NCBI GenBank assembly: GCA_947247005.1 | Contig: OX365947.1 | Span: 33,002,760-33,066,759, forward strand | Source of the DNA: Spisula solida | Lineage: Eukaryota > Mollusca > Bivalvia > Venerida > Mactridae | DNA: 64,000 bases | Direction: 5' to 3' | Part shown: piece after piece, positions 2,051-59,512 of the stretch | Numbering within the stretch: the first letter of the stretch is position 1 | Layout of the letters: every line of letters starts with the position of its first letter | Made by a program: the position numbers and the translations under genes | Notes under the pieces: generated by a model | What the model saw: the letters and a program-made list of their open reading frames with translations, nothing else | Told to the model about the DNA's origin: nothing | Database searches by the model: none

Positions 2051-2052
2051 AA

Positions 2053-5015: not shown

Positions 5016-5142
5016 TTTTATCAGATGAGATGGGTGGTCATTTTTATTGACCAAGTCAATTGAATTTACGATTCTCCTTTTTGCTCCCTATATGTATATA
5101 CCTAATCTACCTGTTTACATTTAGGTGCACAGATCCCAACAC

Positions 5143-36627: not shown

Positions 36628-37072
36628 GGTAAAAATTGCTATATCGGGTAGAATTGCTTTATCGGGTAAAATTTCTGTATCGGATAGATTTGATGTGTCG
36701 GGTAGAGTTGCTGTATCGGGTAGATTTGCTTTATCAGGTAGATTTGCTTTATCAGGTAGATTTGCTGTGTCGGGTAGATTTTATTTGTCGGGTAGAGTTG
36801 CTGCATTGGGTAGATTTGCTGTATCGGGTCAAATTTCTGTATCGGGTAGATTTGATGTGTCGGGTAGAGTTGCTGTATCGGGTAGATTTGATGTGTCGGG
36901 TAGAGTTGCTGCATTGGGTAGATTTGCTGTATCGGGTAAAATTTCTGTTTCGGGTAGATTTGATGTGTCGGGTAGAGTTTCTGTATTGGGTAGATTTGCT
37001 GTATCGGGTAGATTTGCTTAATCGGGTAGAGTTGCTGTATCGGGTAGAGTTGCTGTATAGGGTAGATTATTT
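36628..37072. repeat. 18-bp minisatellite
   Basis: About 24 units of GGGTAGATTTGCTGTATC with variants (GATGTG, GTTGCT, AAATTTCTG). As 18 is a multiple of three, frames stay open on both strands and give hexapeptide repeats. That fully explains the 163-codon and 164-codon open stretches here; they are not supported as genes. Confidence 0.95.
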
Positions 37073-37269
37073 ACTTCATATGAATCATAAATGTGGATTA
37101 CATTTCGACAGGTTTGATTTCTTTAGATAGTTTCGAAACATTTAATCATTCCTAGCTATACTTTGTTTTAATAAGAAGATACGAAATTGAATTGAATGAA
37201 TTCATTTAAAAGACGCAATAATAGTCATTTAAATAAATACCGATTAAAACGATGTACGTTACGCCCATA

Positions 37270-37770
37270 GACTATTTGGCAGCTCCGAGAAGTTAGCAGG
37301 AAGTTGGAAGATGGTAGTTAGAAATTGAATTTCCAGCTGCACGCCTTTAGGGAGCGAGCAGTGAGTTTAATATTAACGTAGCTACGCCAATTTCCAGCTG
37401 GTGTCCAATATCCAGCTATAAGTTCGTTATTCAATTTTCTACCAGCGCGAGTTTCTAGCTGACGTCGAATTTCCAGCCAGCTGGGAGTTCGTTATTCGAC
37501 ATGACAAAAGTTGAATATACAGCTGAGTTCGAATTTCCAGCCAGCTCTAAGTTCGTTATTCGACATGACAGAAGTCGAATTTCCAACTGAGTATGAATTT
37601 CTAACCAGCTCTGAGTTCGTTATTCGACAAGACAAAAGTCGAATTTCCAGCTCAGTTTGAAATTCAAGCCAGCTGTGAGTTCGTTATTTGACTTGACAAA
37701 AAAGTCAAATTTCCAGCTTAGTTCAAATTTCCAGCCAACTCGAGTTCGAATTTTCAGCCAGACTAGGTGT
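37270..37770 (-). repeat. 64-bp satellite, inverted arm
   Basis: Units of about 64 bp on the minus strand: GAATAACGAACTCACAGCTG, GCTGGAAATTCGAACTCAGC, TGGAAATTCGACTTTTGTC. The orientation is opposite to the block at 38097-39325. Confidence 0.9.
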
Positions 37771-38096
37771 CCGTGTGAATAACTAAAATGGTAGGGGACT
37801 GATTTTTTTCCCATGGACACTTACCATTTAGGTTTTCCAACAGAAACCTTGTCCCCTTCCATTTTGGTTTTTCACATGGACGCCTAGTCCGCTACCATTT
37901 TGGTTTTTCACATGGACACCTAGTCCCCTACCTTGTAGGTTTTTCACATGAACACCTATCATTTAGGTTTTTCCTACGGACACCTAGTCCCCTAGCATCC
38001 AGGTTTTTCCTACGGACACCTATTCCCCTACCATTTAGGTTTTAAATGGACACCTAGTCCTCTACATTCTGGTTTTTCACATGGACACCTAGTCCC
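37762..38096. repeat. 36-bp satellite with inversion point
   Basis: About seven forward units of the type CTACCATTTTGGTTTTTCAC then ATGGACACCTAGTCCC, and one inverted unit at about 37762-37801 (ACTAGGTGTCC ... AATGGTAGGGGACT). The orientation switch therefore lies near 37800. Confidence 0.88.
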
Positions 38097-39325
38097 CTGG
38101 AAATTCGAACTCAGCTGGAAGTTCGACTATTGTCATGTCTAATAACGAACTCACAGCTGGCTGGAAATTTCGTTGTCAGCTGGAAATCCGCGATGGTAGA
38201 AAATTGAATAACGAACTTATAAGTGGATATTGGACACCATCTGGAAATTGGCATGGCTATGTGAATATCGAACTCAATGCTAGATCGTTATTTGCGTGCA
38301 GCTGGAAATTCAATTTTGTCTTGTCGAATAACAAACTCACAGCTGGCTGGAAATTCGAACTCAGCTGGAAATTCGACTTCTGTCATATCAAATAACGAAC
38401 TCACAGCTGGCTGGAAATTTGAACTCACCACCTGCAAATTCGACATTTTTGTCAAGTTCAATAACGAACTCACAGCTGGCTGGAAATTCGAAATCAGCTT
38501 GAAATTCGACTTCTGGTTTATCAAATAATGAACTCACAGATGGCTGGAAAAATTCGAAATCAGCTGGAAATTCGACTTTTGTCATGTCGAATAACGAACT
38601 CCCAGGTGGGTGGAAATTTCGTTGTCAGCTGGAAATCCGCGCTGGTAGAAAATTGAATAACGAACTTATAGCTGGATATTGGACACCAGCTGGAAATTGG
38701 CGTGTTTATGTGAATATCGAACTCACTGCTAGATCGTGCAGCTGGAAATTTATTCTCAGCTGGATATTCGACTTTTGTCTTGTGGAATAACAAACTCACA
38801 GCTGGCTAGAAATTCGAACTCTGCTAGAAATTCGACTCTTTGTCTAGTCGAATAACGAACTCATAGCAGGCCGGGAATTTGAACTCAGCTGCAAATTCGA
38901 TATTTTTGTCAAGTCCAATTGCGAACTCACAGCTGGCTGGAAATTCGAACTCAGCTTGAAATTCGACTTCTGGTTTATCAAATAATGAACTCACAGATGG
39001 CTGGAAAAATTCGAACTCAGCTGGAAATTCGAAATTTTTGTCAAGTCCAATAACGAACTCTGAGCTGGCTGGAAATTTAAACTCGGCTTGAAATTCAACT
39101 TTTTGTCAAGTCCAATAAAGAACTTTCAGCTGCCTGGAAATTCGACTTTTTGTTAAGTTGAATAACGAACTCACAGCTGGCTGGAAATTCGAACTCAGCT
39201 AGAAATTCGACTTTTTGTCTAGTCGAATAACGAACTCAGAGCTGGCTGGAAATTTGAACTCGACTTGAGATTCGACATTTGTCATGTCGAAGAACGAACT
39301 CCCAGCTGGCTGGAATTTCGATGGA
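38097..39325 (+). repeat. 64-bp satellite, forward arm with higher-order repeat
   Basis: About 18 units, some shortened. A longer block (TTTCGTTGTCAGCTGGAAAT, then GGATATTGGACACCA) occurs at about 38130-38290 and again at about 38580-38740, a higher-order repeat of about 450 bp. Open stretches here are translation of the repeat. Confidence 0.9.
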
Positions 39326-39878
39326 AGAAAATTAAATAGCACTATTAGTTATCCATTCACAAACGATATTGACTTGTTAACGAAAGACGTCATAGTATGC
39401 CGATAATTCATTATAATTTTTATGCGCGTCCGTGTATTTCCATTTATAAATCAAACTCAAACGCAACAACTAAAACAAATGATACTTGAACATGACATTT
39501 ACGAGTGAGGAATATTTATGGAATTTACTTCTTCGCCAACATCTATACACGTGTTACGAGTGTGGTTCTGATATCTTTTTTGTCAGGTAGTATAAAGGGA
39601 AACAATCAACACTAAACACTTTGGTTTAAAAAATAAAGGGAACCTACTCTTGGAAAAGTTCTCTGGGCATGTACTAAAATATGATTTGGCAGGACCATCA
39701 CATTATATTAATATCATTGGTTTCATTCTCATTATGGATAACATACAAATTTTCCCCACGTTTCATAGTATCCTGTGTGGGCGGACTATAGATCACTGCT
39801 AATGACAATCTTGTTGCCATGGTTTTCATTATAATAATGGGTCTATATTTATCAATGTTAGTTATAAAATTTGATCTA
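39326..39878. other. No recognised feature
   Basis: AT-rich, outside the palindrome; nothing recognised. Confidence 0.5.
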
Positions 39879-40267
39879 CCTTAAAGACATCAGTAAGAAC
39901 TAAAATGTTATGTAAGAAACCACCCTGTAATTAACCATTATCTTACACTGGCCTACATTACGAACACTTCCGGCTCTTGATTAATCTTAACTTTCAAAGA
40001 GATTTTTACTCTGTAGATTATGGAACGTCCGATCTTGTCGGAACAATGTGTCAGGTATGTGGATCACAGACTAATGGATTACTTTATACAATGCAAGCTC
40101 TGTGGAAATACCACGTATCGTATTTATATTAGTACCAGCGTACTGTTTTATCAAAGAACTTACGGAAATATTAACTTACGTTCACATTTAGATTCTTTAT
40201 ATCTCTTTAACAACTATAAAGTGTGGTGAAGGGTTGTTTAATATTAATTACTATTCAGTTAAACAAC

Positions 40268-41326
40268 CCCTACAAATAAAAGCTCCGCGAGTCGCATGTG
40301 CCGCCTGACGACATGCACATTTGCCATGGAAAACTATCCACTATTGGGCTACATATCGACTCACAAAAGTTCTCTATTCATCTGAACCAAAAACGACAAA
40401 GTGATGCTCTGGACAAAAAAATGTTACAGCAAGAAACATGCATACCTATCTTGGAGTCATTAATACTTTTGGTGACAAAGTTATACCACGGACAAGAAAT
40501 GCTTATAAAATCGATCAAAGGGACAAAAATAAAAAAATGATTCTTGTGTACTGCATTTGGACTTTAGGTTAGAAACATGCATACCAAATTTCAAGTCATT
40601 CAACCTCTTGGTTATCCGCCGGACAAGAAATGCTCAAATTAAATCAATCTAAGGGAAATAATTCAAAAACGATGCAAGGCAGAGTTATGGTTCTTGCGCA
40701 TTGCACTTCGGCTTATTGCAAGAAACATGCATACCAAATCTTGAGTCATTTGAACTTAAGGTGACAAAGTTATGCTCCGGTCAAGAAATGCTCTAATAAA
40801 ATCAATCAAAGGGAAATAATTCAAAAACTATGACAGGTAGAGTTATGGTTCTTGCGCACTGCATTTCGGCTTATTGCAAGAAACATGCATACTAAATCTT
40901 GAGTCATTTGAACTTAAGGTGACAAAGTTATGCTCCGGACAAGAAATGCTCTAATAAAATCAATCAAAGGGAAAGAATTCAAAAACTATGACAGGTAGAG
41001 TTATGATTCTTGCGCACTGCACTTCGACTTATTGTAAGAAACATGCATACCAAATCTTGAGTCATTTGAACTTAAGGTGACAAAGTTATGCTCCGGACAA
41101 GAAATGCTCTAATTAAATCAATCAAAGGGAAATAATTCAAAAACTGTGACAGGTTCTTGAGTTATGGTTCTTGAGCACTGCACTTCATCCTATTGTAAGA
41201 AACATGCATATCAATTCTTGAGTCATTTGAACTTAAGGTGACAAAGTTATGCTCCGGACAAGCAATTTATGACGCCGCAGCCGGAGCCGCCGCCGCCAAA
41301 GTAACACCTATATGTCGCCTTTCGGG
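40268..41326. mobile_element. Pearl-like tandem-repeat insertion
   Basis: This 1059-bp stretch is absent from the right arm: 40267 and 41327 are adjacent there (near 59116-59125). It contains about four to five tandem units of 158-161 bp with GACAAAGTTATGCTCCGGAC at 40763, 40921, 41079 and 41240. A GC-rich end follows (GCCGGAGCCGCCGCCGCC, then CGCCTTTCGGGG). Bivalve 'pearl' elements have a core of about 160-bp tandem repeats and have been grouped with non-autonomous Helitron/Helentron elements (from memory). No terminal inverted repeat or target duplication was seen, which fits. Family assignment is inference. Confidence 0.7.
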
Positions 41327-41460
41327 GAACACAAAAATACTGGTCCTCAACGCGTAGGTCTTGAAGAATACTGAGCAATTTAAATTTGAGCGTAAGTAAA
41401 CGATGTCCGTAAGTGCTCTGATCATTAGTGTGAATGTGCGTAAATATGAATTGATCATAT

Positions 41461-41599
41461 TTAAGGTAAAAAAGATACATCACTAAACCAATTAAGGACT
41501 AAACATAGCATTATACGTATAGCGCTCTATAACGTCGATACATACGTATTTCATTTAAGGCTATTTTAATCATTAATTGGTGTATCTTTTTTACCTTAA
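41461..41599. mobile_element. Palindromic MITE, left-arm copy
   Basis: TTAAGGTAAAAAAGATACAT is mirrored by the end at 41599, with inverted repeats of about 40 bp, separated by a short middle (GCATTATACGTATAGCGC). The counterpart at 58839-58984 is in the other arm, so it predates the duplication. TTAA at both ends may be the target duplication. Confidence 0.85.
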
Positions 41600-42030
41600 A
41601 TATCACCAATTCAATTTTTTGAATATACTCAAGAACAAAAGAAAACTTTCACTCTTCTTGGTTATATTGCATAGGAGAGAGCATGTTTGTATACATATGC
41701 ATTCATACCACCAGCTAGCTATTAGTGAAAGGCAGGTTTTCTTTGTTAATTAATCCAATAAATTGTCGGCAGTCATTTTGCATATGAATACGGTAAACTC
41801 TCCTATTGCCCGTTAACTTGTGGCTCGATCCTTTAGTTTGCATGTGATATTGTAAAACTTTCTCTGGTTTAATTTGATGATACAATGTATGCTTCTATTG
41901 TTTATAATCAGTATTATGCATGCAGACCTTTTGTTCTGTTGTTAACATTCATTTCATAAAATACGATTTAACTAAACCCCTAAGCGAAGAAACCAAGCTC
42001 AAACATTGTGAATTTAAACGGCTAATGTAA

Positions 42031-42188
42031 AAAGAGTATATTAAGTCAGACAGGGAAGGCAGCACTCAACTTAACCAGCCGAGCACAGAAAACATTAAAA
42101 ACACACAAAGCACAATGCCCAACTAAACAAGCGCAGATCCGCCCAAGTCCAAGCTGTCGAAAAGTATAATAAATTATAACTAGCTGAA
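42031..42188 (+). mobile_element. GGGAAGGCAGC-family insertion, left arm only
   Basis: About 158 bp lie between AACGGCTAATGTAA and AAGGCCATCATGGAACC; in the right arm these two pieces are joined (about 58408-58436). The insert starts AAAGAGTATATTAAG and contains AGACAGGGAAGGCAGCACTC and GCCGAGCACAGAAAACAT. It is the same dispersed repeat as at 743-840 and 3304-3380. Confidence 0.75.
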
Positions 42189-44209
42189 AGGCCATCATGG
42201 AACCCCAACATGGTCAAGAATTCCAGGATAAACATAGAAAGATTACCGATGACAATAAAGAAAATAAGCTTGCTTTAAGCTGGGTTCAAAACCTTGTATA
42301 TAATAATGAACATCCCAAATATACTGATACCATGCATTTAATGACCTAGGCTACGAACGCTCATGACGAAACGAAGCTTATTTTAAGGATGTTTAAGACC
42401 TTTCTCCGATGTCATCAGTCAAAAATACACTTTTCACCTTATTAAATGAAAATCTCCAGAAATATGCTTTAACATTCTGTTCTTGTTGTGCAGTTTTTAA
42501 TTTTTCAAAATATCGCTTCGTTTCCTAGCAACGTGACTCTATGTACATAGGACGTAAACTTGACGTAATAAAGGGCTAAAGTACTTTTCTTGGTAGTGTG
42601 TTCTAGTTCGATTCGTGTTAACTTGTGAAGGAGCATATAATAGATCGAGTGCTGATTATCAAAGAAGGATTTCTTTTTTACAATAAATGGTCCAATCAAT
42701 GACAGTGTCCCATCATACAGAGGAGGCCATGGTAACATATGCAAGTTCCAGAACCTTAAAGGAGACAAAAATAGATAACTGTGACAACAGAGGATAGCAA
42801 TTACATTATGTCAACATAGTTCAATACCTCCTGTATAAATTATTTCTGATGAATTATGGCGATCAGTTCCCAGACAAACAATAACGTGTCCGCGGTGCTT
42901 TGCAAAGAAATTCTATTATGTCATTAATTCCCATAGGCAATAATCATTGTTTGTTTGAGCTTGTTGTTGCACTTTTGTTGGTTAAATACACGTATAATCA
43001 ATCAGTACACGCGAGAAAGCTATCGGTTTGATCTTGGAAAGGCCGGATTATATTGTCTCTGACATTAAAAGGCACTTGAACATTACACAGGCTGGGTAAA
43101 AAGGATTAAGGGCAGCGTCACGATATCAAGTAGCCTTGGAAACTATTCCTGCTACTACTAGTCCGGCAGAACTTGCAATGGACCGTGCAATGTCTTCTAT
43201 ACAAAATGTTTTTGCATTTTCTTGTTCTCCTGACAATACCATAACATAATCCGGATGATGCCACCTTGTCATCATTGAGCAATTCTCACAATGAGGTCCA
43301 GAAGGGGTACATGAATTTTCATGAATAAGGCAGTATAAGTATATTATCGTTTAGTCAAAGGCAAAGCCAGATACCTTAAATGGTATTTATATTGTGTTGA
43401 ATAATGCATTGCATCAGTAAATACAACATGTGTAGTAGTAACATGTGGAAATAAGGCCCTGCTGGCTGTTTACTTCTTATATGAGGCCCGTTTTTAGACA
43501 AACATATGAATTAAACGAGTAAATGATACATGTTACCATATGTTTCATTATATTGATACTTAATATTGAATTCAGTGTCACTGGCAATCATAAACAACCT
43601 ACATTGCAAGGCTAAATAATTTATTCCATTTAATTGAGGCCCGATTAAGGGTAAATTCAAATGTAGAAAAAAGAGTGAACTTCTACAAACTCAACGTCAA
43701 GAATTTTGTTATTCTCTTAGACTTAAAGGAAAGCAATTTTAATCTTAACTTATATTGTTGTGACCGTGTGCCACCTTTTGAAAAGTAAAATTTGGCGATG
43801 AGGCCCTGCATGCGTGTTAAACTAGAAATAAGACAAGAATGGTAAATAGTCCATAACCATTGTAACATATCAAACATTATATATTACTGATTAATTAAAT
43901 TATAGTACTGATTGTTAAGTATACATAACTTAATAATATATAGAAATAAAATAACCAACTGAGGCCCGTAGGTTGCAGTAATTAGTAGAGCCAGGCATGT
44001 ACATAACCGGCAAGGGCTACTCCCTTTAAATATAAGGTTTGATTGAACTAATGGTGGGTGCCTTACATTACTGAATGTATTGTATAGCTTGATAATATGT
44101 TTTGTCTATTCGTGAATGGCTGCTCTAGGGGGTGGCGAGCTATTGCAGTACATACGAAAACAGTCATGCGGTACTTGCTGGTGATGTAGAGTTAGAAATG
44201 GCGGTCGGA

Positions 44210-44350
44210 ATGACAGTACGTAGTCGGTTGTCATGTGAACCTGATATAACTTGGAATTACCTAATTCGAGGGGTGTTTTGTAGCTGTTAAGTATTTCATG
44301 TTTTGTTGTTTCTTATGAGTGCTGTCTTCCCTGTCGGACTTGTGCTATCC
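44210..44350 (-). repeat. Degenerate GGGAAGGCAGC-family repeat
   Basis: The minus strand has GTCCGACAGGGAAGACAGCA, then CTCATAAGAAACAAC. It is a weaker match to the family at 743-840, inside the GAGGCCC transposon. Confidence 0.45.
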
Positions 44351-45145
44351 TTTTGAATACCATAAAGGTTCTAGCATGACAGTAGTCGGTGATGAATAGG
44401 ACCACATTCAGTATATAGAGACCATAGTGGTATGAAGCTACATGCATTAATATCTCACATAACCTTTATTCATCAAGCCGTAATGGAATTATTATTAGAT
44501 TTCTAAAAGGTTTGTTAACAATGAAATGGTTTGTTGAACTTGGTCTAAGACCTCTTTTGTAGTTTAAATCTCTAGCAGAGACCCACGTCCTCGTTTTACT
44601 ATTTTATAAAAAATAATTGTTTGATTACTAGAGATTTTTGATACATTTTAACATTTGAATTTACCCTTACAAATGAATTCAATTTCATGAAATGTAATAT
44701 TAAACCATGCAATTCAGGTTGTTTATATTTATCGATGTCACTCACTTATAGGCATGTAACGACACATAGACACGTCATTTTTGATTGTCAATACAAGTGT
44801 AAAGAAATGATAACAATTTATTCTTAAAAAAGCATCATTTATATTTCAACACACACGCAGGGCCTCATCTATATTTTACTTATTCAGAACGTGGTACTTC
44901 TATCACTTAATTACACTTATATAACGTCCAGTTATGATTAAATTGTCATTCCCAAAACATAAGAGAAATAAAAAAAAAATTGAAAGATTACATCCTTTTT
45001 CATATATTAAGTTATTAACCCTTATCAGGGCCTCGATTTTCATTAACAAAACTATTAAGCAATGTATTGCTGGTTCCTTATTTTTTTCAATGCCATTGAA
45101 TACATTATTTATTAGCAATATTAAGAAATTTTTACTTTACATGTA

Positions 45146-45170
45146 TTCATTTATTTATTTATTTATTTAA
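45146..45170. repeat. (TTTA)n microsatellite
   Basis: About six consecutive ATTT units inside the GAGGCCC transposon. Confidence 0.85.
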
Positions 45171-45610
45171 TTAACGTTTTTGTGTAATACCGGGCCTCAT
45201 GTTAGTTATAAACCACAAATGGGGCCTAATTTCCACATTTTATTATTACAAAGGCTGTATATATTGATGTAACGTATTATCTAACACATTAAAATTGCAT
45301 TTACGGTGTTTTGATTCACATTTGGTTGAATAGTAATGTATATATATACTGATTTATTCGGGGAAAAACATGTACCCCTTGGGGCCTCTTTGTGAGAATT
45401 GCTCAATGATGACAAGGTGGCATCACCCGGATTCTGTTACAGTGTTGTCCAGAGAACATAAAAAGGTAAAAACATTTTGTATAGAAGACATGGCACGGTT
45501 ACCCTAAAAATTGCCGTTTATCTATACAGTCATGTTCACTTTATAAAGGCTCACGTAGAAGACTTAGTATTAATATTATTAGTATTATTTATAATACTAG
45601 TATATATGTA

Positions 45611-45918
45611 GTCGCTAGCACAAGCACTTTTGCCGAGATGCTTATATAAAGGGTTTCACGTTATTAGTTTCCATTCAATTTAAAGTTAAATTGCGTATAT
45701 TGTATATGCGTAATAATTATATAACATAAGATCTGTCATCCATGTAATAAACAAAACATGTGTTCTGAGTAATTGAATAAGGGAACATTTGAAGGCAACT
45801 TTATAACAATGTTCTGTACTTTAATTTTACTGACGAAAGTTATCAGTGGTATACGTGTCTACAACATTGATAAATAATAGAATCTGCGACACTGCCAATC
45901 AAAATGCGTTCATTGTAG
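45611..45918. other. Left-arm sequence without right-arm counterpart
   Basis: The arms stop matching near 45610/57060 and resume at TTGTATAAACCC (45919/55958). About 310 bp here face about 1.1 kb of unrelated sequence in the right arm. No structure recognised. Confidence 0.6.
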
Positions 45919-46085
45919 TTGTATAAACCCATTAAATGGTATAGTCCGTTTATTCTGGATTGTCACTTGTATACAATGTAATATCAAACCAAACCATTTT
46001 TATTGTTTAAAACATTCTTTAATCGGATATGAAGACAGTGCAAATCAATACCTTATGCACCAGGCCATTTACTGATATAAACAAT
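45919..46085 (+). repeat. Cys-rich-coding dispersed repeat, left-arm copy
   Basis: Translation in the plus frame from about 45925 gives NPLNGIVRLFWIVTCIQCN followed by a YCLKHS block and stops after MHQAIY. The right arm has the same frame open over 86 codons (56061-55801, minus). A broken copy is at 30307-30530. The Cys pairs could suggest a zinc-binding relic, but no family is recognised. Confidence 0.5.
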
Positions 46086-46582
46086 AGATGTTAAATTTAT
46101 TAATTAATAATAGAAATTGCAATGTTTAAGTACAAAATGTTATGTAAACAGGTGACTGACCTGATTAAATGAGTTATATGTCAACATTTTCTACCGTCGA
46201 CCTATTATCAATAGTTGCGTCAGTCTGAAACCAATACTATTGCAATAGTCATTGGTTCAGTATAAACGCACCTAAATTGTCCCAGTACACCCATTTACGC
46301 ACCTAAATAAAGCATTAAGCATCTAAAGAAAGTATCAATTCCAAGGCAATCGGTGACAGAAGCTAACCAGTATTCATTGCAGCAGTAAAATGTATTATCC
46401 GTCTTCATATAACAAATGACATGTAGCAAAACTAGGTTAATGTGTCTGGATATACGCGATTATAGGAGACACCAGGCAGTAGGGATTGGATCTAACTACA
46501 CGAAGTATGTGCTCTTCTCTGTTCCTATTTGTTCTCCCTTGTTATTTTATGTTCTTCTTCATGCACGCCGATCTAGGAATGG

Positions 46583-46768
46583 TGTAGTCTAGTCAGGATA
46601 AAAATCCAGTGACGCAGCGGTACAAAGGCTTATATACTGTACAAACAACTATAATTTCAATGCTAAACTTACATACTAAACTTCGCTCTACCTGTTTAGA
46701 CAACGGTTGTGATTTATGCGTACACATCAACTGCAACGTCACTGTCACAATATCATAACTGGACTACA
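46583..46768. mobile_element. Short MITE, left arm only
   Basis: TGTAGTCTAGT at the left and its near complement ACTGGACTACA at the right. About 186 bp, absent from the right arm, where GATCTAGGAATAGTAGC runs straight into AATGTATATAATTATG (near 55262-55290). The target duplication is unclear. Confidence 0.65.
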
Positions 46769-46807
46769 GCACATGTATATAATTATGTGTATGTATGAAT
46801 TATATAT

Positions 46808-47418
46808 GAGCCAATCTCCAGGAAAACCTGCTATATTGACATTATGTAATTACTGCATGTAACAAGGTTTTGAAAAAACTTTCAAATATGAAAAAATGAC
46901 ATATCTATAGATTCAATTTTAAGTCATTTATCAATATATTACTATATCTTGGCTTTAAAGTGTCTTATGCATTATGTCGAAATCATTTACTTCGTTGCTA
47001 TGGTGATCAATTTCAGAAAAGCACTCTGATTGAGAAAAACGAGGAGTTAGTTGATTAAAACTGTAGTAGCTTTTCTCTAAATGTGAAAATTTACAATTTG
47101 GATATATATTTTAAAACTTAAAACCTCATTCTAAACTTTGATACCATTTTGACCAGTTCATGTAAACAATTGATCAAATGCAGTATTTATAAAGTACTGG
47201 TTACAACGATGTCGAATAACGACTGAATGACGTTTGCGACGTCACACAAAAAAGGTCTGAATAGGGCCTCAACAAAACAGCTGTAACTTCCTAAAAATTC
47301 AAGATACTAACAAAATTTCTTTTGCATTTTGCTTCATTAAGATTACTCTTTTAAATAACAAAAATAATTCAATATCAAATTTTTTGTCAAAATAGCAGGT
47401 TTTTCTGGAGACTGGCTC
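46808..47418. mobile_element. 611-bp element with ATAT duplication, left arm only
   Basis: GAGCCAATCTCCAGGAAAAC at the left and its near complement TTTTTCTGGAGACTGGCTC at the right form inverted ends of about 27 bp with few mismatches. ATAT flanks both sides. The right arm shows the empty site CAACATATATAATTC (about 55223-55237). It includes one AGGGCCTCA, like the motif of the 43.2-45.5 kb element. No coding recognised. Confidence 0.85.
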
Positions 47419-47539
47419 ATATGTTGATTTTTACCAGGAAAACAAAATTAGTTTTTATTTCAATACTTGTGTTTAACTATTGTGTACGTAGAATTCGAAT
47501 CTTTGCTTTCATATACATTGTATGTTAGATTAAGTTTAG

Positions 47540-47804
47540 TTTATTCTAATATATTTTTATGGTCGATTGTGTAACAAGTGTTTTCAAACTTATATTAATC
47601 ACTCTCGACACCTCATTCCTGATGTAACCCATTGCTACGAGGATATGAGAGTAGAGAAACCAGTTTCCCGTTATGCTAAGTGACATTCCCTGGAACGATT
47701 GGTACCATTTTCATTTCGTATTTGGTATGACACGGTCTGGAATCGAACAAGTGCCACCCGCACCGCTCGATGCGGACGCTTAACCACTAGGCTATCTAGG
47801 AGGC
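47540..47804 (-). mobile_element. tRNA-derived SINE, left-arm copy
   Basis: On the minus strand: GCCTCCTAGATAGCCTAGTG then GTTAAGCG (A box), GTTCGATTCC (B box), then the body shared with 29910-30180. The tail is ATATTAGAATAAACT-like. Its pair in the right arm (54853-55120) shows it inserted before the inverted duplication. It has the best-preserved Pol III promoter of the three copies. Confidence 0.88.
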
Positions 47805-48834
47805 GGTTTTCATTTGAGTAGAGGCACTAATACGTGGTATGAAGTCAAATACGTCATTTATACTGCCAGATTACGAAGTAATTGGACATTCGCCGTTTTT
47901 CAACCATTTTCAGTCATTGGCGGATGGACAATACTTGAAATCACAAAAAATAGTTCAAGTAAGGGCATTACAATGTTCTTTATTATTGAGTACATAAACA
48001 TTGCAGACATACTGCCACTAATAAACATTATAATACGCTTTTAAATTTACGACCATGTTAAAAATGCCTCAGACGTCTGTAGAAGATAAATTTGCATATA
48101 AAATACAATTTGCTTTGCTGTCGTAAATTAATTCCAGCAGTTTCAAACCGCCCACTTCAAGCCCGGAGTAATTTTATGGCTGATGGTTTAAACATCACTA
48201 GACTCGTACATCACAATATTCATCAGTTTAACTTATTTTTTTGGATGTAACGTCATGATTGGATTATGCGAATTGATTGTCTTGTTGGCTCAATATCTGA
48301 AGGGCATTGAAATCACCAGTAAGTGGAAAATTGGTTTTGTTTTACCATTCCCATGATTGAACATAAATAGCCCGGACATGCAGGCAACTTGATTAGCATA
48401 GCAAAGGTGCAGTTATTGAAATGCAGAACTATATAAAAATACAAACAGACTTCAGTGAAACTAACAGACAAAGAAAACCAACTATAATTCTCCGGTATCT
48501 GGCCTGACGGATTATAGACTGATCCGGATCAAAGCTGATCCTATAATAATTGCCTATTTTTTAAGGTTTTTGAGATCTTAAGGTAAAACTACTGATAGCG
48601 ATGTACGGAATACAGAAACCACTTCTGATAATATATTGAAAACATTCGAATCTTTTTTAGTTATATTTTCATCCTAAACACTAACGTTAATCCTTTTTTA
48701 ACACAGGGCCTGGGTTCAAGTAAGGTATTTTTAAATAAAATACTCGAGATATAATGCAACACGTATAATACCTAACGAATGCAGCCATCCCAATTGCACA
48801 CTTACCCTGACAACAATTGCAAATACAAAAGGCG

Positions 48835-49110
48835 CGAATCTTATTTTAAGACAGTCAGAGTGACTTCCACTGAATATCAACGCGATAACTCGGTAATACA
48901 AGAGTTACTTTCCTTGAATAAGGGGAAGCAGTTTTGCTTTACTTATTTTAAGTCAGTCAGGGTGACTTTCGGAAAGAACACGGTTATACAAGAGTGGTTT
49001 CCCTTGAATCAGGGGAAACTACTATATTTAGCTTAGTTTAAGTCAGTCAGAGTGACTTCCCCTAAAAATCAAGAGAGAGAACTGGGTAATGCAAGAGTTG
49101 CTTGGGTACA
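48835..49110 (+). repeat. About 100-bp tandem units, left arm
   Basis: CAGTCAGAGTGACTTCC or a near match occurs near 48853, 48953 and 49044. Each is followed by GGTAATACAAGAGTT-like sequence and a TTGAATCAGGGGAA block. The same units recur at 49685-49945 and, inverted, in the right arm. Confidence 0.8.
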
Positions 49111-49684
49111 AGACTAGTGTTCAACAAATCCCAGTCGAGAAACTGACCACAATACTTCGAACACCGACACATTGGATTTACCAACAAACCTTAATAGAAA
49201 ACATGCTATGGTCAAGATTACTTATAGCAACAGTATTTCAGATACCGCCTACTATACTTCACTTTTTATTGTTCACAACTAAAAGCAAAACCATCAATTT
49301 TACTGCCAGGCCGAGGCTAAACAAGCCTTGTTCGACCCGCAGTCAATGCTGGAAGTCTTACAGCTGCTGTTTTTACAGATCTAGACTAGAATTCATTAAA
49401 AATAACATCCCTTCCATCTCTACCGTTATTTTTTTCACAAAATACCTTTGAAATTGAACCATCTAATTTCACTCTAAAAACCATTCAGCTGATCAGCAAA
49501 CGCTTGGTTTCAAGGAGATAAAAAATGTAAACACATTTAATTCGAATCAAGTAGCATTATGGTCACTGTCGTGGACGAAAACCCCAAAACAGCAATGGAT
49601 TATTCTCTAAATATGCAACAGCCCTGTATTAAGTCAAAATCTCCTCTTTTATCATTTTACATGGCCAATTCGTATATGAGAAAC

Positions 49685-49945
49685 TGTGGTCTTGTACCTT
49701 ACATTGAATCAGGGGAAGTAATTCTGCTCGTCTTATTTTAAGACAGTCAGATTGACTTCCCCTAAATTTAAATATCAACGCGATAACTCGGTAATACTAG
49801 AGTTGCTGTCCTTGAATCAGGGAAAGCAACTCTGCTATAATTATTTAAAGTCAGTCAGAGTGACTTCCCCTGATTCAAAGGAATCAGCTCTTTGTTTTTC
49901 CGAGCTCACCTCCTTAAATCAGGGGAAACAACTCTACACCTTTTT
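49685..49945 (+). repeat. About 100-bp units, second block, left arm
   Basis: CAGTCAGATTGACTTCCCC (about 49744) and CAGTCAGAGTGACTTCCCC (about 49852), with TTGAATCAGGGAAAGCAACT between them. A 60-codon open stretch at 49559-49741 is identical in translation to 52578-52396 in the other arm; this reflects arm similarity rather than shown coding. Confidence 0.75.
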
Positions 49946-50111
49946 CCAAAGCCAGATTGCCTATATTATTCGAAATTACCAACAGTATTTTTTTTCGAGA
50001 TGGGGTAAATGAAAATCCTTTTAAGGGCTCTTTTGAAATATGGCTCCTGGCCTATACAGTTCAGTGCAAAAATGCACTACTTAATACATGTAATTCAAAG
50101 CTCATATTTCA

Positions 50112-50684
50112 GATGCACGCTCCATTATCAATTTCATGATAAACGAAATGCACGCTCCATTATCAGTTTCATGATAAACGCAATGCACGCTCCATTATCA
50201 ATTTCATAATAAACGCAATGCATGCTCCATTATCAATTTCATAATGAACGCAATGCACGCTCCATTATCAGTTTCATGAAAAACGCAATGCATGCTCCAT
50301 TATCAATTTCATAATAAACGCAATGCATGCTCCATTATCAATTTCATAATAAACGCAATGCACGCTCCATTATCAATTTCATAATAAACGCAATGCACGC
50401 TCCATTATCAATTTCATAATAAAGCAATGCATGCTCCATTAACAATTTCATGAAAAACGCAATGTACGCTCCATTATCAATTTCATAATAAACGCAATGC
50501 ACGCTCCATTATCAATTTCATAATAAACGCAATGCATGCTCCATTATTAATTTCATGATAAACGCAATGCCCGCTCCATTATCAATTTCATAATAAACGC
50601 AATGCATGCTCCATTATCAGTTTCATGAAAAACGCAATGCACGCTCCATTATCAGTTTCATGAAAAACGCAATGCACGCTCCAT
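50112..50684 (+). repeat. 35-bp minisatellite, left arm
   Basis: About 16 units of CGCAATGCACGCTCCATTAT followed by CAATTTCATAATAAA. It lies at the inner end of the left arm and is mirrored by 51557-52026. Confidence 0.95.
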
Positions 50685-50690
50685 AGTTAA

Positions 50691-51264
50691 GGCAAAATAG
50701 CATTTAGGGTAGAACTTATTGCTACAGAAACTTTTAAGAGATTTTCAGCAAGGTCACCATTGCTTGTAGACAATTTATTTAGTACTGGTGTGATGCTGAT
50801 TACTTGCAGACACGTTATTTAAGGGCTTAAATCCAAGATGGCGTCCAAGATGGCCGCCATAAACTGTAAAACCGCATAAAGCATTAATCATATGTAATAC
50901 AGTGTTTCATACATGGATGTAATTATATTTATTTGCATGAACACCGTTTTTCTGATAGTGTGCATCAAACTGACCTACAGTACTTTCAAGGTCAAAGTAC
51001 GAAAATGCGGCTAGAAAATTGACATTTCCGCTCCATTTTTTACTTTAGCTTACATTTTTCAATTCAGCCAGGCTATAAAAGAAAAAAATAGTTGGCAAGT
51101 GTATATTTCCTCAGTATAAGTTAGAAATTAAATCCATGCAATTTTTGTGAAGACAGCAACTTTATACAAGGTCACTTTTCAATTAAATTATGGTTCGATG
51201 TTAAAATAGATAAGTTACTCATCCTCAGCAAAATTATGACGCTAGTTGAGTTTTCAATAATACG
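50691..51264. other. Palindrome spacer, unique part
   Basis: Present once. It includes the short duplication AAGATGGCGTCCAAGATGGC. No gene recognised. Together with 51265-51556 it separates the arms. Confidence 0.7.
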
Positions 51265-51556
51265 CTACACAAAAGTTCTAAACCGCCACAATAATTATGT
51301 GTAATAATTTTGTTAATACTGCACATATTAATGAGCACGTGTTTGTTGTGTTGCAATATGCACGTGTTCATGAACATTTTGTGTGAAATATGTTGTGACT
51401 TTGTAAAATAGAATTCATTACGTAATGCGCCTGTAACGAGGAACATGGCCGTTTATCTCCCAAAATGAATCAATAATGAAATGCAAGTATTATCCAAGTA
51501 TTGGTATACAAAATTTCATGAGAGTACGTGCAGTATTAACAAAATTATTACACATA
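51265..51556. mobile_element. Mariner-derived fragment in palindrome spacer
   Basis: CTACACAAAAGTTCTAAACC then GCCACAATAATTATGTG is the complement of the right end of the 31471-32629 element. Sequence from ACGTGTTTGTTGTGTTGCAA to CAGTATTAACAAAATTATTA then matches 32397-32598 in the forward sense. The right end is cut off at ACACATAA, exactly where the 35-bp array of the right arm begins. It looks like a deletion derivative whose last end was lost. Confidence 0.75.
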
Positions 51557-52026
51557 AATTGATAATGGAGCGTGCATTGCGTTTTTCATGAAATTGATAA
51601 TGGAGCGTGCATTGCGTTTATTATGAAATTGATAATGGAGCGTGCATTGCGTTTAAATTGATAATGGAGCGTGCATTGCGTTTATTATGAAATTGATAAT
51701 GGAGCATGCATTGCGTTTATTATGAAATTGATAATGGAGCATGCATTGCGTTTATTATGAAATTGATAATGGAGCATGCATTGCGTTTTTCATGAAACTG
51801 ATAATGGAGCGTGCATTGCGTTTATTATGAAATTGATAATGGAGCATGCATTGCGTTTATTATGAAATTGATAATGGAACGTGCATTGCGTTTATTATGA
51901 AATTGACTATGGAGCATGCATTGCGTTTATTATGAAATTGATAATGGAGCGGGCATTGCGTTTATCATGAAACTGATAATGGAGCGTGCATTGCGTTTAT
52001 CATGAAATTGATAATGGAGCGTGCAT
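51557..52026 (-). repeat. 35-bp minisatellite, right arm
   Basis: About 13 units, inverted relative to 50112-50684. The copy number differs between the arms, with one shortened unit near 51650. Confidence 0.95.
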
Positions 52027-52199
52027 CTGAAATATGAGCTTTTAATTACATGTATTAAGTAGTGCATTTTTGCACTGAACTGTATAGGCCAGGAGCCATA
52101 TTTCAAAAGAGCCCTTAAATGGATTTTCATTTACCCCATCTCGTAGAAAAATACTGTTGGTAATTTCGAATAATATACTATAGGCAATCTGGCTTTGGA

Positions 52200-52440
52200 A
52201 AAGGTGTAGAGTTGTTTCCCCTGATTTAAGGAGGTGAGCTCGGAAAAACAAAGAGCTGATTCCCTTGAATCAGGGGAAGTCACTCTGACTGACTTAAAAT
52301 AATTAAAGCAGAGTTGTTTTCCCTGATTCAAGGAAAGCAACTCTAGTATTACCGAGTTATTAAATTTAGATTTAGGGGGAGTCAATCTGACTGTCTTAAA
52401 ATAAGACGAGCAGAATTACTTCCCCTGATTCAATGTAAGG
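52200..52440 (-). repeat. About 100-bp units, right arm inner block
   Basis: The complement of the left-arm block at 49685-49945, including GAAGTCACTCTGACTGACTT at about 52276. Confidence 0.75.
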
Positions 52441-53049
52441 TACAAGACCACAGTTTCTCATATACGAATTGGCCATGTAAAATGATAAAAGAGGAGATTT
52501 TGACTTAATACAGGGCTGTTGCATATTTAGAGAATAATCCATTGCTGTTTTGGGGTTTTCGTCCACGACAGTGACCATAATGCTACTTGATTCGAATTGA
52601 AAGTGTTTACATTTTTTATCTCCTTGAAACCAAGCGTTTGCTGATCAGCTGAATTGTTTTTAGAGTGAAATTGGATGGTTCAATTTCATAGGTATTTTGT
52701 GAAAAAAATAACGATAGAGATGGAAGGGATGTTATTTTTAATGAATTCTAGTCTAGATCTGTAAAAACAGCAGCTGTTAGACTTCCAGCATTGACTGCGG
52801 GTCGAACAAGGCTTGTTTAGCCTCGGCCTGACTGTAAAATTGATGGTTTGGCTTTTAGTTGTGAACAATAAAAAGTGAATTATAGTAGGCGGTATCTGAA
52901 ATACTGTTGCTATAAGTAATCTTGACCATAGCATGTTTTCTATTAAGGTTTGTTGGTAAATCCAATGTGTCGGTGTTCGAAGTATTGTGGTCAGTTTCTC
53001 GACTGGGATTTGTTAAACACTAGTCTTGTACCTAAGCAACTCTTGCATT

Positions 53050-53310
53050 ACCCAGCTCTCTCTCTTGATTTTTAGGGGAAGTCACTCTGACTGACTTAAA
53101 CTAAGCTAAATATAGTAGTTTCCCCTGATTCAAGGGAAACCACTCTTGTATTACCGTGTTCTTTCCGGAAGTCACCCTGACTGACTTAAAATAAGTAAAG
53201 CAGAACTGCTTCCCCTTATTCAAGAAAAGTAACTCTTGTATTACCGAGTTATCGCGTTGATATTCAGTGGAAGTCACTCTGACTGTCTTAAAATAAGATT
53301 CGCGCCTTTT
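53050..53310 (-). repeat. About 100-bp units, right arm outer block
   Basis: The complement of the left-arm block at 48835-49110. An 85-codon open stretch here (53358-53101) differs at two positions from that at 48779-49036. Confidence 0.75.
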
Positions 53311-53547
53311 GTATTTGCAATTGTTGTCAGGGTAAGTGTGCAATTGGGATGGCTGCATTCGTTAGGTATTATACGTGTTGCATTATGTCTCGAGTATTTT
53401 ATTTAAAAATACCTTACTTGAACCCAGGCCCTGTGTTAAAAAAGGATTAACGTTAGTGTTTAGGATGAAAATATAACTAAAAAAGATTCGAATGTTTTCA
53501 ATATATTATCGGAAGTGGTTTCTGTATTCCGTACATCGCTATCAGTA

Positions 53548-54061
53548 CTCTCCAATTGCCTCGCCCGAAACTACATCGTTTCTAGGCTCTGCATTATTGC
53601 TAGTGTATTAGCGCTATTGCTATTTTTAGACAGGAGAATCCAAAACCAGCGTACAGCGAGGCAAATGTGATAATGTAAACGGGTTTTTAAATGCATTGTA
53701 TATAAAACGCTCGTGTGTTAAAAGAATGACTTGTATTATAAATTAAAACTCTCGCACTATCAATTTATCATATTGATTGAAACAAAAAATTATGACCAGT
53801 CAATAGAACCATGAAATATTTAAACCTCATACAGTGTGTACTCGTTTAAACCTTTCAACACGTAGCCTTCATATTCACTATAAACTCTGCTATATAACTC
53901 TCTACTGTCTATACAAACAAGTAAACTTTCATCAGCCAATGAAAATGTGTATCAGGGTTCACAGCAGTTTTGTAAAGGTCAAATATCAAAATATTCTAGT
54001 AGTTTAAGCAGCGTGTGAATGGTAACGGTTAAGTGGAAATCAAAGCGCTGTAGGGAGCGTA
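53548..54061. mobile_element. 514-bp insertion with 11-bp duplication, right arm only
   Basis: CGCTATCAGTA flanks the insert at 53537-53547 and 54062-54072 and occurs once in the left arm (complement near 48590-48601). The insert begins CTCTCCAATTGCCTCGCC and ends CTGTAGGGAGCGTA. There is no poly(A), and the ends are only weakly inverted. An 11-bp duplication is in the range of Mutator-like elements or retroposons; not decided. Confidence 0.75.
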
Positions 54062-54852
54062 CGCTATCAGTAGTTTTACCTTAAGATCTCAAAAACCTTA
54101 AAAAATAGGCAATTATTATAGGATCAGCTTTGATCCGGATCAGTCTATAATCCGTCAGGACAAACACCGGAGAATTATAGTTGGTTTTTTTTTGTCTGTT
54201 AGTTTCACTGAAGTCTGTTTGTATTTTTATATAGTTCTGCATTTCAATAACTGCACCTTTTCTTTGCTAATCAAGTTGCTTGCATGTCCGGGCTATTTAT
54301 GTTCAATCATGGGAATGGTAAAACAAAACCAATTTTCCACTTACTGGTGATTTCAATGCCCTTCAGATATTGAGCCAACAAGACAATCAGTTCGCAAAAT
54401 CCAATCATGACGTTACATCCAAAAAATAAGTTAAACTGATGAATATTGTGATGTACGAGTGTAGTGATGTTAAAACCATCAGCCTTAAAATTACTCCGGG
54501 CTTGAAGTGGTGGTTTCAAACTGCTGGAATTGATTTACGACAGCAAAGCAAATTGTATTTTATATGTAAATTTATCTTCTACAGACGTCTGAGGAATTTT
54601 TAACATGGTCGTAAATTTAAAAGCGTATTATATTGTTTATTAGTGGCAGTATGTCTGCAATGTTTATGTACTCAAAAATAATAAAGTAATACCCTCACTT
54701 GAACTTTTTTTTGTGATTTCAAGTATTGTCCATCCGCCAACGACTTAAAACGGTTGAAAAACGGCGAATGTCCAATTACTTCGAAATCTGACAGTATAAA
54801 TGATATATTTGACTTCATATCACGTAGTAGTGCCACTACTCAAATGAAAACC

Positions 54853-55120
54853 GCCTCCTAGATAGCCTAGTAGTTAAGCGTCCGCGTCGTGCGGTGCGGG
54901 ATTGTACTTGTTCGATTCAAGACCGTGTCATACCAAATACGAAAAGAAAATGGTACCAATAGTTCCAGGGAATGTCACTTAGCATAAAGGGAAACTGGTT
55001 TCTCTACTCTCATACCCTCGTAGCGATGGGATACATCAGGAATGAGGTGTCGAGAGTGATTAATATAAGTTTGAAAACACTTGTTACACAATCGACCATA
55101 AAAATAAATTAGAATAAACT
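54853..55120 (+). mobile_element. tRNA-derived SINE, right-arm copy
   Basis: GCCTCCTAGATAGCCTAGTA, B-box-like GTTCGATTCA, and the same body as 29910-30180. It is paired with 47540-47804. Confidence 0.87.
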
Positions 55121-55800
55121 AAAACTATTCTAACATATGATAACAAAGAATCGAATTCTACGTACACAATATTTTAACACATGTATTGATATAAAAACTA
55201 ATTTTGTTTTCGTGGTAAAAATCAACATATATAATTCATACGTACACATAATTATATACATTTGCTACTATTCCTAGATCGGCGTACATGAAGATGAACA
55301 AAGAAGAACAAAGAAGAACAAAGATGAACAAGGGAGAACAAATAGGAACAGAGAAGAGCACATACTACGTGTAGTCAGATCCATGCCGTACTGCCTGGTG
55401 TCTCCTATAATCGCGTATATCCAGACACATTAACCTAGTTATAATTGCTACATGTCATTTGTTATATGAAGACGAATGATACATTTTACTGCTGCAATGA
55501 ATACTGGTTAGCTTCTGTCACCGATTGCCTTGGAATTGATACTTTCTTTAGATGCTTAATGCTTTATTTAGGTGCGTAAATGTGTGCACTGGGACAATTT
55601 AGGTGCGTTTATACTGAAACAAAGAATATTGCAATTTAGTATTGGTTTCAGACTGACGCAACTATTGATAATATGACGACGGTAGAATATGTTGACATAT
55701 AACTCATTTAATCAGGTCAGTCACCTGTTTACATAACATTGTATACTTAAACATTGCAATTTCTATTATCAATTAATAAATTTAACAGCTATTGTTTATA

Positions 55801-55958
55801 TCAGTATATGGCTTTGTGCATAAGGTATTGATTTGCACTGTCCTCATATCCGATTAGAGAATGTTTTAAACAATACAAATGGTTTGGTTTGATATTACAT
55901 TGTATACAAGTGACAATCCCGAATAAACGGACTATACCATTTAAAGGGTTTATACAAT
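55801..55958 (-). repeat. Cys-rich-coding dispersed repeat, right-arm copy
   Basis: The minus frame is open from 56061 to 55801. The part shared with the left arm (INPLNGIVRLFGIVTCIQCN onward) ends at 55801. The first codons (with RCQTCDN) lie in right-arm-only sequence, so the 86-codon frame is partly accidental or the relic of a longer frame. Confidence 0.45.
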
Positions 55959-57060
55959 TAGTAATATTATCACATGTTTGACATCGCGGTAGCGTAATAA
56001 AGCCATTGTTTATTTTTGATAATACCCAGTCTAGTGTAATAAAGCTTTGACGCGACGTCATTTAAAGTATAGGCGACGTCGTCAAAGTTGCGCGTTTATT
56101 ATTGTGAAAATATGTAGCTATTTTATGTTTCGGCCAGCAAAAGGCCAACATGTGATAAATAGAGGATATTACATGAGTGACTTTCCATATTGAATTTATA
56201 AAACGAGTTGAATAAAATAATAAAATGCGAGGCTCTGCCCGAGTTAAAAATGTATGACATCCTAATGTGTACCCCCTCCTTGTGTGTATCAGCTTGTCCC
56301 ATCTACTAGTATACGGGTATACATCACGAAATATCAAATATCATCGTGCGTTCATCAGCTTGTCCTATCTATACGGGTATCACAAAATATCCCACCGTGC
56401 GTTCATCAGCTTGTCCTATCTATACGGGTATCACAAAATATCCCACCGTGCGTTCATCAGCTTGTCCTATCTATACGGGTATACATCACGAAATATCCCA
56501 CCGTGCGTTCATCAGCTTGTCCTATCTATACGGGTATACATCACGAAATATCCCACCGTGCGTTCATCAGCTTGTCCTGTCTATACGGGTATCACAAAAT
56601 ATCCAACCGTGCGTTCATCAGCTTGTCCTATCTACTAGTATACGGGTATACGTCACAAAATATCCCACCGTGCGTTCATCCGCTTGTCCTATCTATACGG
56701 GTATCACAAATTGACTTGGGGTAGTCTTCGTACCCAGATTTTTGTGGTTTTATTTTCCTTGCGTTAACTCCTTGATTTCTGGTTGTACAGCTATTTTTTC
56801 AACATCATACATTGCGTTATACATTATGAATTGAGCCTCGAATGAGTATGGATAATGATGTATGTAACGACGTCGCGATGACGTTGGGCCGGTGTAGCCA
56901 TAGTGACGTTACGGTTTTTTTCACCAAATATTCAATTGGGCTCAATAATTTTATAGTTATGTATTTGTAATACTCCAATCTATTACCAGACCGATTTTCT
57001 TCAATATTGATAACGTAACAAAGATTTTAGAGCATTATCCCGCGTATTTGTTGATCACCC
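55959..57060. other. Right-arm-only segment with tandem array
   Basis: About 1.1 kb with no counterpart in the left arm. It contains an inverted repeat at 56044-56086 (CTTTGACGCGACGTC against GACGTCGTCAAAG), the 51-bp array, and further CGACGTCG/TGACGT-rich sequence near 56865-56920. Probably one or more insertions; ends not resolved. Confidence 0.6.
56285..56706. repeat. 51-57 bp minisatellite
   Basis: About eight units of CGTGCGTTCATCAGCTTGTC, CTATCTATACGGGTATCAC and AAAATATCCCAC; some units have ATACATCACG added. The length is divisible by three in most units, so three overlapping frames of 122-146 codons stay open; none is supported as a gene. Confidence 0.93.
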
Positions 57061-57876
57061 CGTATATTATAAATAATAATAATAATATCGTGAGCCTTCA
57101 TAAAGTGAACATGACTGTAGTAGCAGGAATAGTTTCCCAGGCTACTTGATATCGTGACGCTGCCCCCCAGCCTGTGTAATGTTCAAGTGCCTTTTAATGT
57201 CAGAGACAATATAATCCGGCCTTTCCAAGATCAAACCGATAGCTTTCTCGCGTGTACTGATTGATTATACGTGTACTTAACCAACAAACGTGCAACAACA
57301 AGCTCAAACAAACAATGATTATTGCCTATGGGAATTAATGACATAATAGAATTTCTTTGCAAAGCACCGCGGACACGTTATTGTTTGTCTGGGAACTGAT
57401 CGCCATAATTCATCAGAGATAATTTATACAGAAGGTTATTGAACTATGTTGACATAATGTAATTTCTATCCTCTGTTGTCACATTTATCTATTTTTGTCT
57501 CCTTTAAGGTTCTGGGACTTGCATATGTTGCCATGGCCTCCTCTGTATGATGGGGCGCTGTCATCGATTGAAGCATTTATTGTAACAAAGAAATCCTTCT
57601 TTGATAATCAGCACTCGATCTTTTAGATGCTCTTTCACTAGTTAACACGAATTGAACTAGAACACAATACATTTGTACCAAGAAAAGTACTTTAGCCCTT
57701 TATAACGTCAAGTTTACGTCCTATGTACATAGAGTCACGTTGCTAGGAAACGAAGCGATATTTTGAAAAATTAAAAACTGCACAACAAGAACAGAATGTT
57801 AAAGCATATTTCTGGAGATTTTCATTTAATAAGGTGAAAAGTCTATTTTTGACGGATGACATCGGAGAAAGGTCTT

Positions 57877-58195
57877 TTTTTTGGTAGAGTTTATTTTAAT
57901 AGCTTATAATAATAAGTTACAAACAAGCTCTAGGGCTTTTTTCAAAGACTATCTTAACAATTGGTAATTGAACTACTTTGACATAAACTGTATAATATGC
58001 TGAATAGAGAGAACAATAAACAAGAGAAGATAGTCAATTCAAACGTATGAACATCTATAGTAATGGTTGTTTCACATAGTTATTATATAAATTATTATTA
58101 TAATGTTCAAGTGTTTTAAGGACTATATGTTATAGAATATAGAATACAGTACATACACATTTAAACACATACATGAAACAAGACACATATGTTAT
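57877..58195 (-). mobile_element. 319-bp retroposon with poly(A), right arm only
   Basis: GGAGAAAGGTCTT occurs at 57864-57876 and 58196-58208 and once in the left arm (complement near 42393-42405). On the minus strand the insert ends AATAAACTCTACC followed by an A run, giving an AATAAA signal close to the tail. Target duplication plus A tail indicates LINE-type retroposition of an RNA 3' end. The source is not recognised. Confidence 0.85.
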
Positions 58196-58838
58196 GGAGA
58201 AAGGTCTTAAACATCCTTAAAATAAGCTTCGTTTCGTCATGAGCGTTCGTAGCCTAGGTCATTAAATGCATGGTATCAGTATATTTGGGATGTTCATAAT
58301 TCTATACAAGGTTTTGAACCCAGCTTAAAGCAAGCTTATTTTCTTTATTGTCATCGCTAATCTTTCTATGTTTATCCTGGAATTCTTGAACATGTTGGGG
58401 TTCCATGATGGCCTTTACATTAGCCGTTTAAATTCACAAAGTTTGAGCTTGGTTACTTCGTTAACGGGTTTAGTTTAATCGTATTTTATGAACTGAATGT
58501 TAACAACAGAACAAATGGTCTGCATGCACAAAACTGATTATAAACAATAGAAGCATATCATCAAATTAAACCAGAGAAAGTTTTACAATATCACATGCAA
58601 ACGAAAGGATCGAGCCACAAGTTAACGGGCGATAGGAGAGTTTACCGTATTCATATGCAAAATGACTGCCGACAATTTATTGGATTAATTAACAAAGAAA
58701 ACCTGTCTTTCACTAATAGCTAGCTGGTGGTATGAATGCATATGTATACAAACATGATCTCTCCTATGCAATATAGCCAAGAAGAGTGAAAGTTTTCTTT
58801 TGTTCTTGAGTATATTCAAAAAATTGAATTGGTGATAT

Positions 58839-58984
58839 TTAAGGTAAAAAAGATACACCACTAAACCAATTAAGGACTAAAATAGCCTTAATGAAATACG
58901 TATGTATCGACGTTATAGAGCGCTATACGTATAATGCTATGTTTAGTCCTTAATTGGTTTAGTGGTGTATCTTTTTTACCTTAA
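58839..58984. mobile_element. Palindromic MITE, right-arm copy
   Basis: TTAAGGTAAAAAAGATACAC ... GTGTATCTTTTTTACCTTAA. The ends are nearly perfect inverted repeats of about 43 bp. Counterpart of 41461-41599. Confidence 0.87.
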
Positions 58985-59512
58985 ATATGATAAATGCATG
59001 TTTACGCACATTCACACTAATGATCAGAGCACTTACAGACATCGTAAACTTAATTACGCTCAAATTTAAATTGCTTAGTATTATTCAAGACCTACGCGTA
59101 GAGGACCAGTATTTTTGTTGGGGTTCTTTGACCGAATAATAATTAATATTGAACAACCCTTCACCAAACTTTATAGTTGATAAAGAGATATAAAGAATAT
59201 AAATGTGAACGTAAGTTAATATTTCCGTAAGTTCTTTGATAAAACAGTACGCTGGTACTAATATAAATACGATACGTGGTATTTCCACAGAGTTTGCATT
59301 GTATAAAGTAATCCATTAGTCTGTGATCCACATACCTGACACATTGTTCCGACAAGATCGGACGTTCCATAATATACAAAGTAAAAATCTCTTTGAAAGT
59401 TAAGATTAATCAAGAGCCGGAAGTGTTCGTAATGTAGGCCAGTGTACGATAATGGTTAATTACAGAGTGGTTTCTTACATAACATTTAAGTTCTTACTGA
59501 TGTTTTTAAGGT

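Follow-up and report, generated by a model that had tools for sequence, protein, structure and literature searches.

The closest described counterparts of the structure reported here are human fold-back inverted duplications. According to the available part of the source (PMC3907307), the inverted copies in these cases are separated by a single-copy spacer, 766-70,466 bp long, and inverted microhomology of a few bp is found at the spacer junction; it measured 2-8 bp at 13 of 21 sequenced junctions, and in seven of these 13 it was 2 bp. A close parallel from nature is in Anopheles gambiae, where the 14.6-kb low-copy repeats at inversion 2Rj have inverted arms of 5.3 kb with about 4 kb between them; the authors regarded these repeats as segmental duplications rather than mobile elements (PMC1952172, available part). 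Long inverted arms around a spacer are also found in sex-chromosome palindromes, as the available parts of a willow study (PMC7023750) and an ape study (PMC11168930) describe them; mammalian palindromes, per the willow study, are kept alike by gene conversion and carry reproductive genes. Here we describe a locus of similar layout in a 64,000-nucleotide stretch of genomic DNA (hereafter the window, with positions counted from its first letter). Two collinear inverted copies, a left arm at 39878-50690 (+ strand) and a right arm at 51556-59512 (- strand), flank a spacer of 865 bp at 50691-51555. The likely explanation is a real interstitial inverted segmental duplication that was made by fold-back or template switching and whose arms diverged afterwards.

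The locus also differs from these systems. The human cases are, in the available text of PMC3907307, patient rearrangements, mostly far larger, lying beside terminal deletions or translocations or in ring chromosomes, whereas the present locus is small, interstitial and 3.6% diverged. The Anopheles repeats occur at each of the two breakpoints of an inversion of the chromosome (PMC1952172, same part); here there is one locus, and no inversion is known. In contrast to mammalian palindromes, the open frames scanned here revealed no gene, and the arms differ by 2.2% in their innermost block and by up to 6% outward. With 3.6% overall, the arms are not near-identical, as arms kept alike by gene conversion would be. 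Among the titles and abstracts listed in a literature search made without the species name, none concerns this locus, which says little.

Self-comparison resolved the arms into eight collinear inverted blocks with BLAST identities of 93.5-98.2%. From the outer ends inward, these pair 39878-40276 with 59512-59114, 41331-42031 with 59118-58414, 42187-42407 with 58416-58196, 42395-43163 with 57876-57113, 45916-46559 with 55960-55311, 46768-46808 with 55266-55226, 47419-48600 with 55230-54062 and, innermost, 48590-50588 with 53547-51556. Between the blocks there is a match of 72 columns at 74% (45525-45596 with 57119-57065). The homologous share amounts to 6106 of the 10813 left-arm bases (56%) and 5975 of the 7956 right-arm bases (75%). 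An earlier note on this DNA had stated that nearly all of the left arm recurs in inverted form, at about 94-98% identity where counted and around a spacer of 870 bp. In outline this agrees with our results, which show inverted homology around a spacer, but "nearly all" overstates the share in common. The chained inverted homology of the arms, 6024 bp, greatly exceeds the next largest inverted chain, 1185 bp, in 304 kb of DNA, a small and non-random sample consisting of the 164-kb neighbourhood and seven 20-kb loci (the chained pieces were at least 85% identical and lay no more than 25 kb from one another, with the low-complexity filter on). When the two arm stretches were compared in direct orientation, 280 bp of the left stretch were found in common. 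The inner part of each arm (48840-50690, + strand; 51556-53297, - strand) is a segment of a dispersed family that carries a tandem array of 35-bp units and a minisatellite able to form hairpins.

The outer ends are sharp, at 39878 and 59512, and the sequences beyond them show no match on either strand over 3 kb or 20 kb. Within 50-kb flanks there were 5 inverted and 11 direct matches, and the 13 listed ones are short (52-266 bp) and scattered. Direct reading of both edges revealed no exact target duplication. The sharp ends, the unrelated flanks and the lack of a target duplication had all been claimed before, and each was borne out. No N occurs in the 164 kb around the locus, and the joins are gapless.

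Copy number was analyzed by whole-genome searches (932 Mb in 36 contigs, the locus being on contig C4) with four arm segments, 39879-40400, 41331-43163, 47419-48600 and 48590-50110. The best 40 of 982 to 3654 candidates were scored in each search, so that diverged copies could escape. For all four segments, the left and right arms were the only high-identity places across the part that they have in common. The right arm matched bases 1-398 of the first segment, that is, until the left-arm insert, and its match to the second was split into three pieces. One-arm repeats filled most of the scored slots for these two segments; a third high-identity copy should rank first anyway. The remaining matches were to one-arm inserts (91-100%), to older repeats of the arms (69-90%) and to inverted pieces inside the locus. 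The arms are collinear and inverted, at least 1 kb long, at least 90% identical and low in copy number, which are the features of an inverted segmental duplication.

The aligned arms differ by 196 substitutions in 5399 sites (3.6%), 85 transitions and 111 transversions, and by 19 gap events, the 35-bp array and block overlaps being excluded. The blocks do not all diverge to the same extent (chi-square p 0.002): 33 substitutions fall in the 1516 sites of the innermost block (2.2%) and 163 in the 3883 sites of the others (Fisher p 0.00025, with the block picked post hoc); farther from the centre, 500-base stretches reach 6%. The lower divergence of the innermost block could reflect conversion near the centre, constraint or chance. 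With a copy on C4 as outgroup, an inner stretch of 877 columns showed 8 derived changes in the left arm, 9 in the right arm and 5 ambiguous ones. The equal counts argue only against one arm being a poorly polished copy, and fit alleles and paralogues alike. The inverted duplication is probably real and old.

Insertions found in one arm alone make up much of the sequence that the arms do not have in common. Six one-sided gaps are clean, and at five of them the site is present once in the uninterrupted arm and twice in the interrupted arm (5, 3, 5, 13 and 11 bp). Four of the insertions are in the left arm. That at 40277-41330 has 158-bp tandem repeats inside and a 5-bp target duplication (ACAAA), and its initial bases (about 125) recur genome-wide at 91-97%. 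The 155-bp repeat at 42032-42186 shows a weak 3-bp site overlap (AAA); copies 99-100% identical to it are found on many contigs, and it was therefore probably active recently. For the 2361-bp insertion at 43164-45524, which has inverted ends of about 650 bp at 70%, the target duplication is ambiguous (the alignments overlap by 7 bp). The 610-bp insertion at 46809-47418 ends in terminal inverted repeats of 33 bp, is flanked by a target duplication of 5 bp and has a relative on C4 at 81%. In the right arm, 319 bp with an A-rich end (57877-58195) and 514 bp (53548-54061) are flanked by 13-bp and 11-bp target duplications, respectively. Since five of the one-arm insertions have exact target-site duplications, elements were inserted after the copying. 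A dispersed repeat at 46585-46766, with relatives on C8, C9 and C15 (76-91%), is probably a further left-arm insertion. The right arm has 51-bp tandem repeats in 55961-57064, opposite 319 unrelated bases (45597-45915) of the left arm.

The spacer is mostly dispersed-repeat sequence. It is single within the locus, all 646 of its bases that were searched matched genome-wide at the locus only, and the other genomic matches are partial relatives at 67-95%. Several of the genomic relatives of its first part, an old dispersed repeat, start at spacer base 1. The spacer is thus repeat-derived, yet it was not duplicated with the arms, and in this it fits the single-copy spacers of fold-back duplications. 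Its last part, 51260-51555, is an element with inverted terminal repeats whose right terminal repeat is cut short at the junction with the right arm. In a relative at 32397-32632, the right terminal repeat runs 37 bases past the stop of the spacer copy, and the left terminal repeat of the spacer element itself predicts the same continuation. The element stops where the inverted array begins, and two bases, AA, at this junction fit both sides. Since the terminal repeat is cut exactly at the inverted arm, the breakpoint is probably at 51555/51556, with the left arm and the spacer as the source and the right arm as the inverted copy. The possibility that the spacer was inserted later into a perfect palindrome was dropped, because its last element is truncated at the junction and does not end there.

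From these features we infer the strand-level events and the direction of copying as follows. A broken or stalled strand would have ended within the terminal repeat of the last spacer element. Through about 2 bp of homology, it may then have resumed synthesis on the opposite strand, within the nearby 35-bp array, either by folding back or by switching template. Synthesis would have copied the left arm backwards as far as 39878, and the copied strand would have been joined, without visible homology, to the sequence now at 59513. Both arms would later have changed independently and gained mobile elements. Several observations weigh against this scheme. No microhomology is visible at the outer junction. 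The 2-bp AA at the inner junction is attainable by chance; in the available part of PMC3907307, 134 of 1000 simulated random junctions had at least 2 bp. The truncation is read from one longer relative in the DNA analyzed, together with the element's own left terminal repeat. Only one further relative turned up; it lies in L030, is partial and says nothing about the truncated end. Furthermore, the 35-bp array, in which the junction lies, folds no better than shuffled sequences (z +1.1).

Other explanations of the same geometry were considered. The earlier note had offered three readings, a true chromosomal palindrome, a giant element whose inverted ends are very long and an inverted assembly join of two divergent haplotypes, and a true inverted duplication is the best supported of them. 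An assembly artefact would have strung together two divergent haplotypes, or both forms of an inversion polymorphism, so that the arms would be alleles. Two haplotypes of a highly variable bivalve could also differ by 3.6% and by elements that one carries and the other lacks, and the equal numbers of derived changes (8 and 9) fit alleles as well as paralogues. A haplotype join, however, would need two false gapless joins, since there is no N in 164 kb and the 20-kb flanks show no homology. We therefore disfavour this reading and regard it as unlikely, although some weight must be left to it. Chimeric artefacts of amplification or of hairpin reads do exist (PMC6218980, available part). Arms derived from one molecule in this way should be near-identical, unlike the arms here, and such an origin is hard to reconcile with target-duplicated insertions in one arm only; this candidate was rejected.

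The long inverted ends of foldback elements contain tandem repeats, and the arms here do end in a 35-bp array. It is nevertheless highly improbable that the arms are the ends of a giant or foldback-type mobile element. Each of the four arm segments has two high-identity places only among its best 40 candidates, and there is no exact target duplication at 39878/59512, which together argue against a repeated giant element. In addition, no transposase was found in the 11 of 19 open frames scanned, and an element is truncated where the spacer meets the right arm. A further candidate is a small inversion: if its breaks are staggered, whatever lies between them becomes duplicated, inversely oriented, with one copy on each side of the inverted piece. 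It would give the arm-spacer-inverted arm layout and can truncate an element at the junction, but the breaks would have to be staggered by about 6 kb, with a spacer shorter than 1 kb in the middle. Otherwise it is indistinguishable here from fold-back, and we consider it very unlikely. The rearrangement that we favour, duplication by fold-back or template switching, is ordinary in kind, involving about 6 kb of apparently non-coding DNA whose details, including a probable breakpoint, are readable.

The family to which the inner arm belongs was further analyzed at other loci. Related segments were found at seven of them, at about 67-91%, these loci having been chosen for matching in several pieces, and the 35-bp array was found again at four of the seven (C4, C8, C15 and C17). 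Bases 49116-49699 (approximately) of the segment also occur as a stand-alone repeat at many other places. Upstream of the family segment on C17 there is an open frame with an RVT_1 match (39.2 bits; cut-off 29.6). The sequence bearing it is nearly whole on C9 and partial on C4 and C8; it is not present at that place on C3. Since this sequence is common to several of the related loci, the inner-arm family is probably linked to a retroelement. Beside one related locus there is an open frame of 479 amino acids encoding C2H2 zinc fingers (C8:14420381-14421817, - strand).

Two minisatellite stretches of the family fold, as single-stranded DNA, better than 200 of 200 shuffled sequences (z -4.3 and -5.2), whereas two spacer stretches (z -1.0 and +0.5) and one arm control (-1.9) fold no better than shuffles. 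One of the seven loci, on C11, has an inverted family pair, 29863307-29864596 with 29868065-29869119, in which 610 bp match at 88% and 513 bp at 86%, with arms of about 1.1-1.3 kb that are about 3.5 kb apart and no 35-bp array. A 1185-bp inverted pair at 91% on C17 lies outside the family segment. It might be supposed that the minisatellites form hairpins that seed repeated fold-back duplications and so give palindromes genome-wide, the present locus and that on C11 being two independent cases. The junction here, however, is in the poorly folding 35-bp array and not in the hairpin-forming minisatellite. The C11 pair has no match to the array and may have arisen from two insertions that happened separately; the comparison covered seven other loci. 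We consider such seeding across the genome quite improbable, and any role of hairpin-forming repeats in the present duplication would be conjectural.

The earlier note had also held that no coding region explains the conservation of the arms. In keeping with this, none of the 11 open frames scanned, out of 19 of at least 80 amino acids in the locus, reached the curated cut-off of a Pfam family; such a scan would miss split genes with short exons. Sub-threshold matches to MukE, zf-BED and Dis32-like_C were taken as chance, and a gene-bearing palindrome was rejected on this basis. A structured RNA was also rejected, as the window contained no Rfam family at the gathering score and no tRNA or transfer-messenger RNA. 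There is no sign of a function, and the duplication is most likely neutral.

Elsewhere in the window, an open reading frame with an RVT_1 reverse transcriptase match (9450-11057) is flanked by 1.5-kb direct repeats (4222-5727 and 11398-12916) that differ by 2.2% substitutions over 1503 sites; direct flanking repeats of this kind are unusual for an element without long terminal repeats (a non-LTR element). An endonuclease-like frame below cut-off lies upstream, at 7849-8376. The RVT_1 frame had 97 protein matches, of which 15 had a named organism: eight bivalves (Magallana, Pinctada and Mytilus; 26-42% identity), two bivalve-associated bacteria, one invertebrate metagenome, three moths or butterflies and one brine shrimp. 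The host is accordingly taken to be a probable bivalve. A succession of distinct tandem arrays (18, 64, 36 and 66 bp) at 36636-39321, which includes an inverted pair at 82% (37328-37740 with 38750-38341), stops about 0.6 kb before the left outer edge of the locus.

By itself the locus answers no open question; it does illustrate the decay of a palindrome after elements have interrupted it. If real, it would be an inverted duplication, in a probable mollusc, in which the source arm, the copy, the spacer and the breakpoint can be distinguished, and the arm-specific insertions would record which mobile elements have moved since the duplication.

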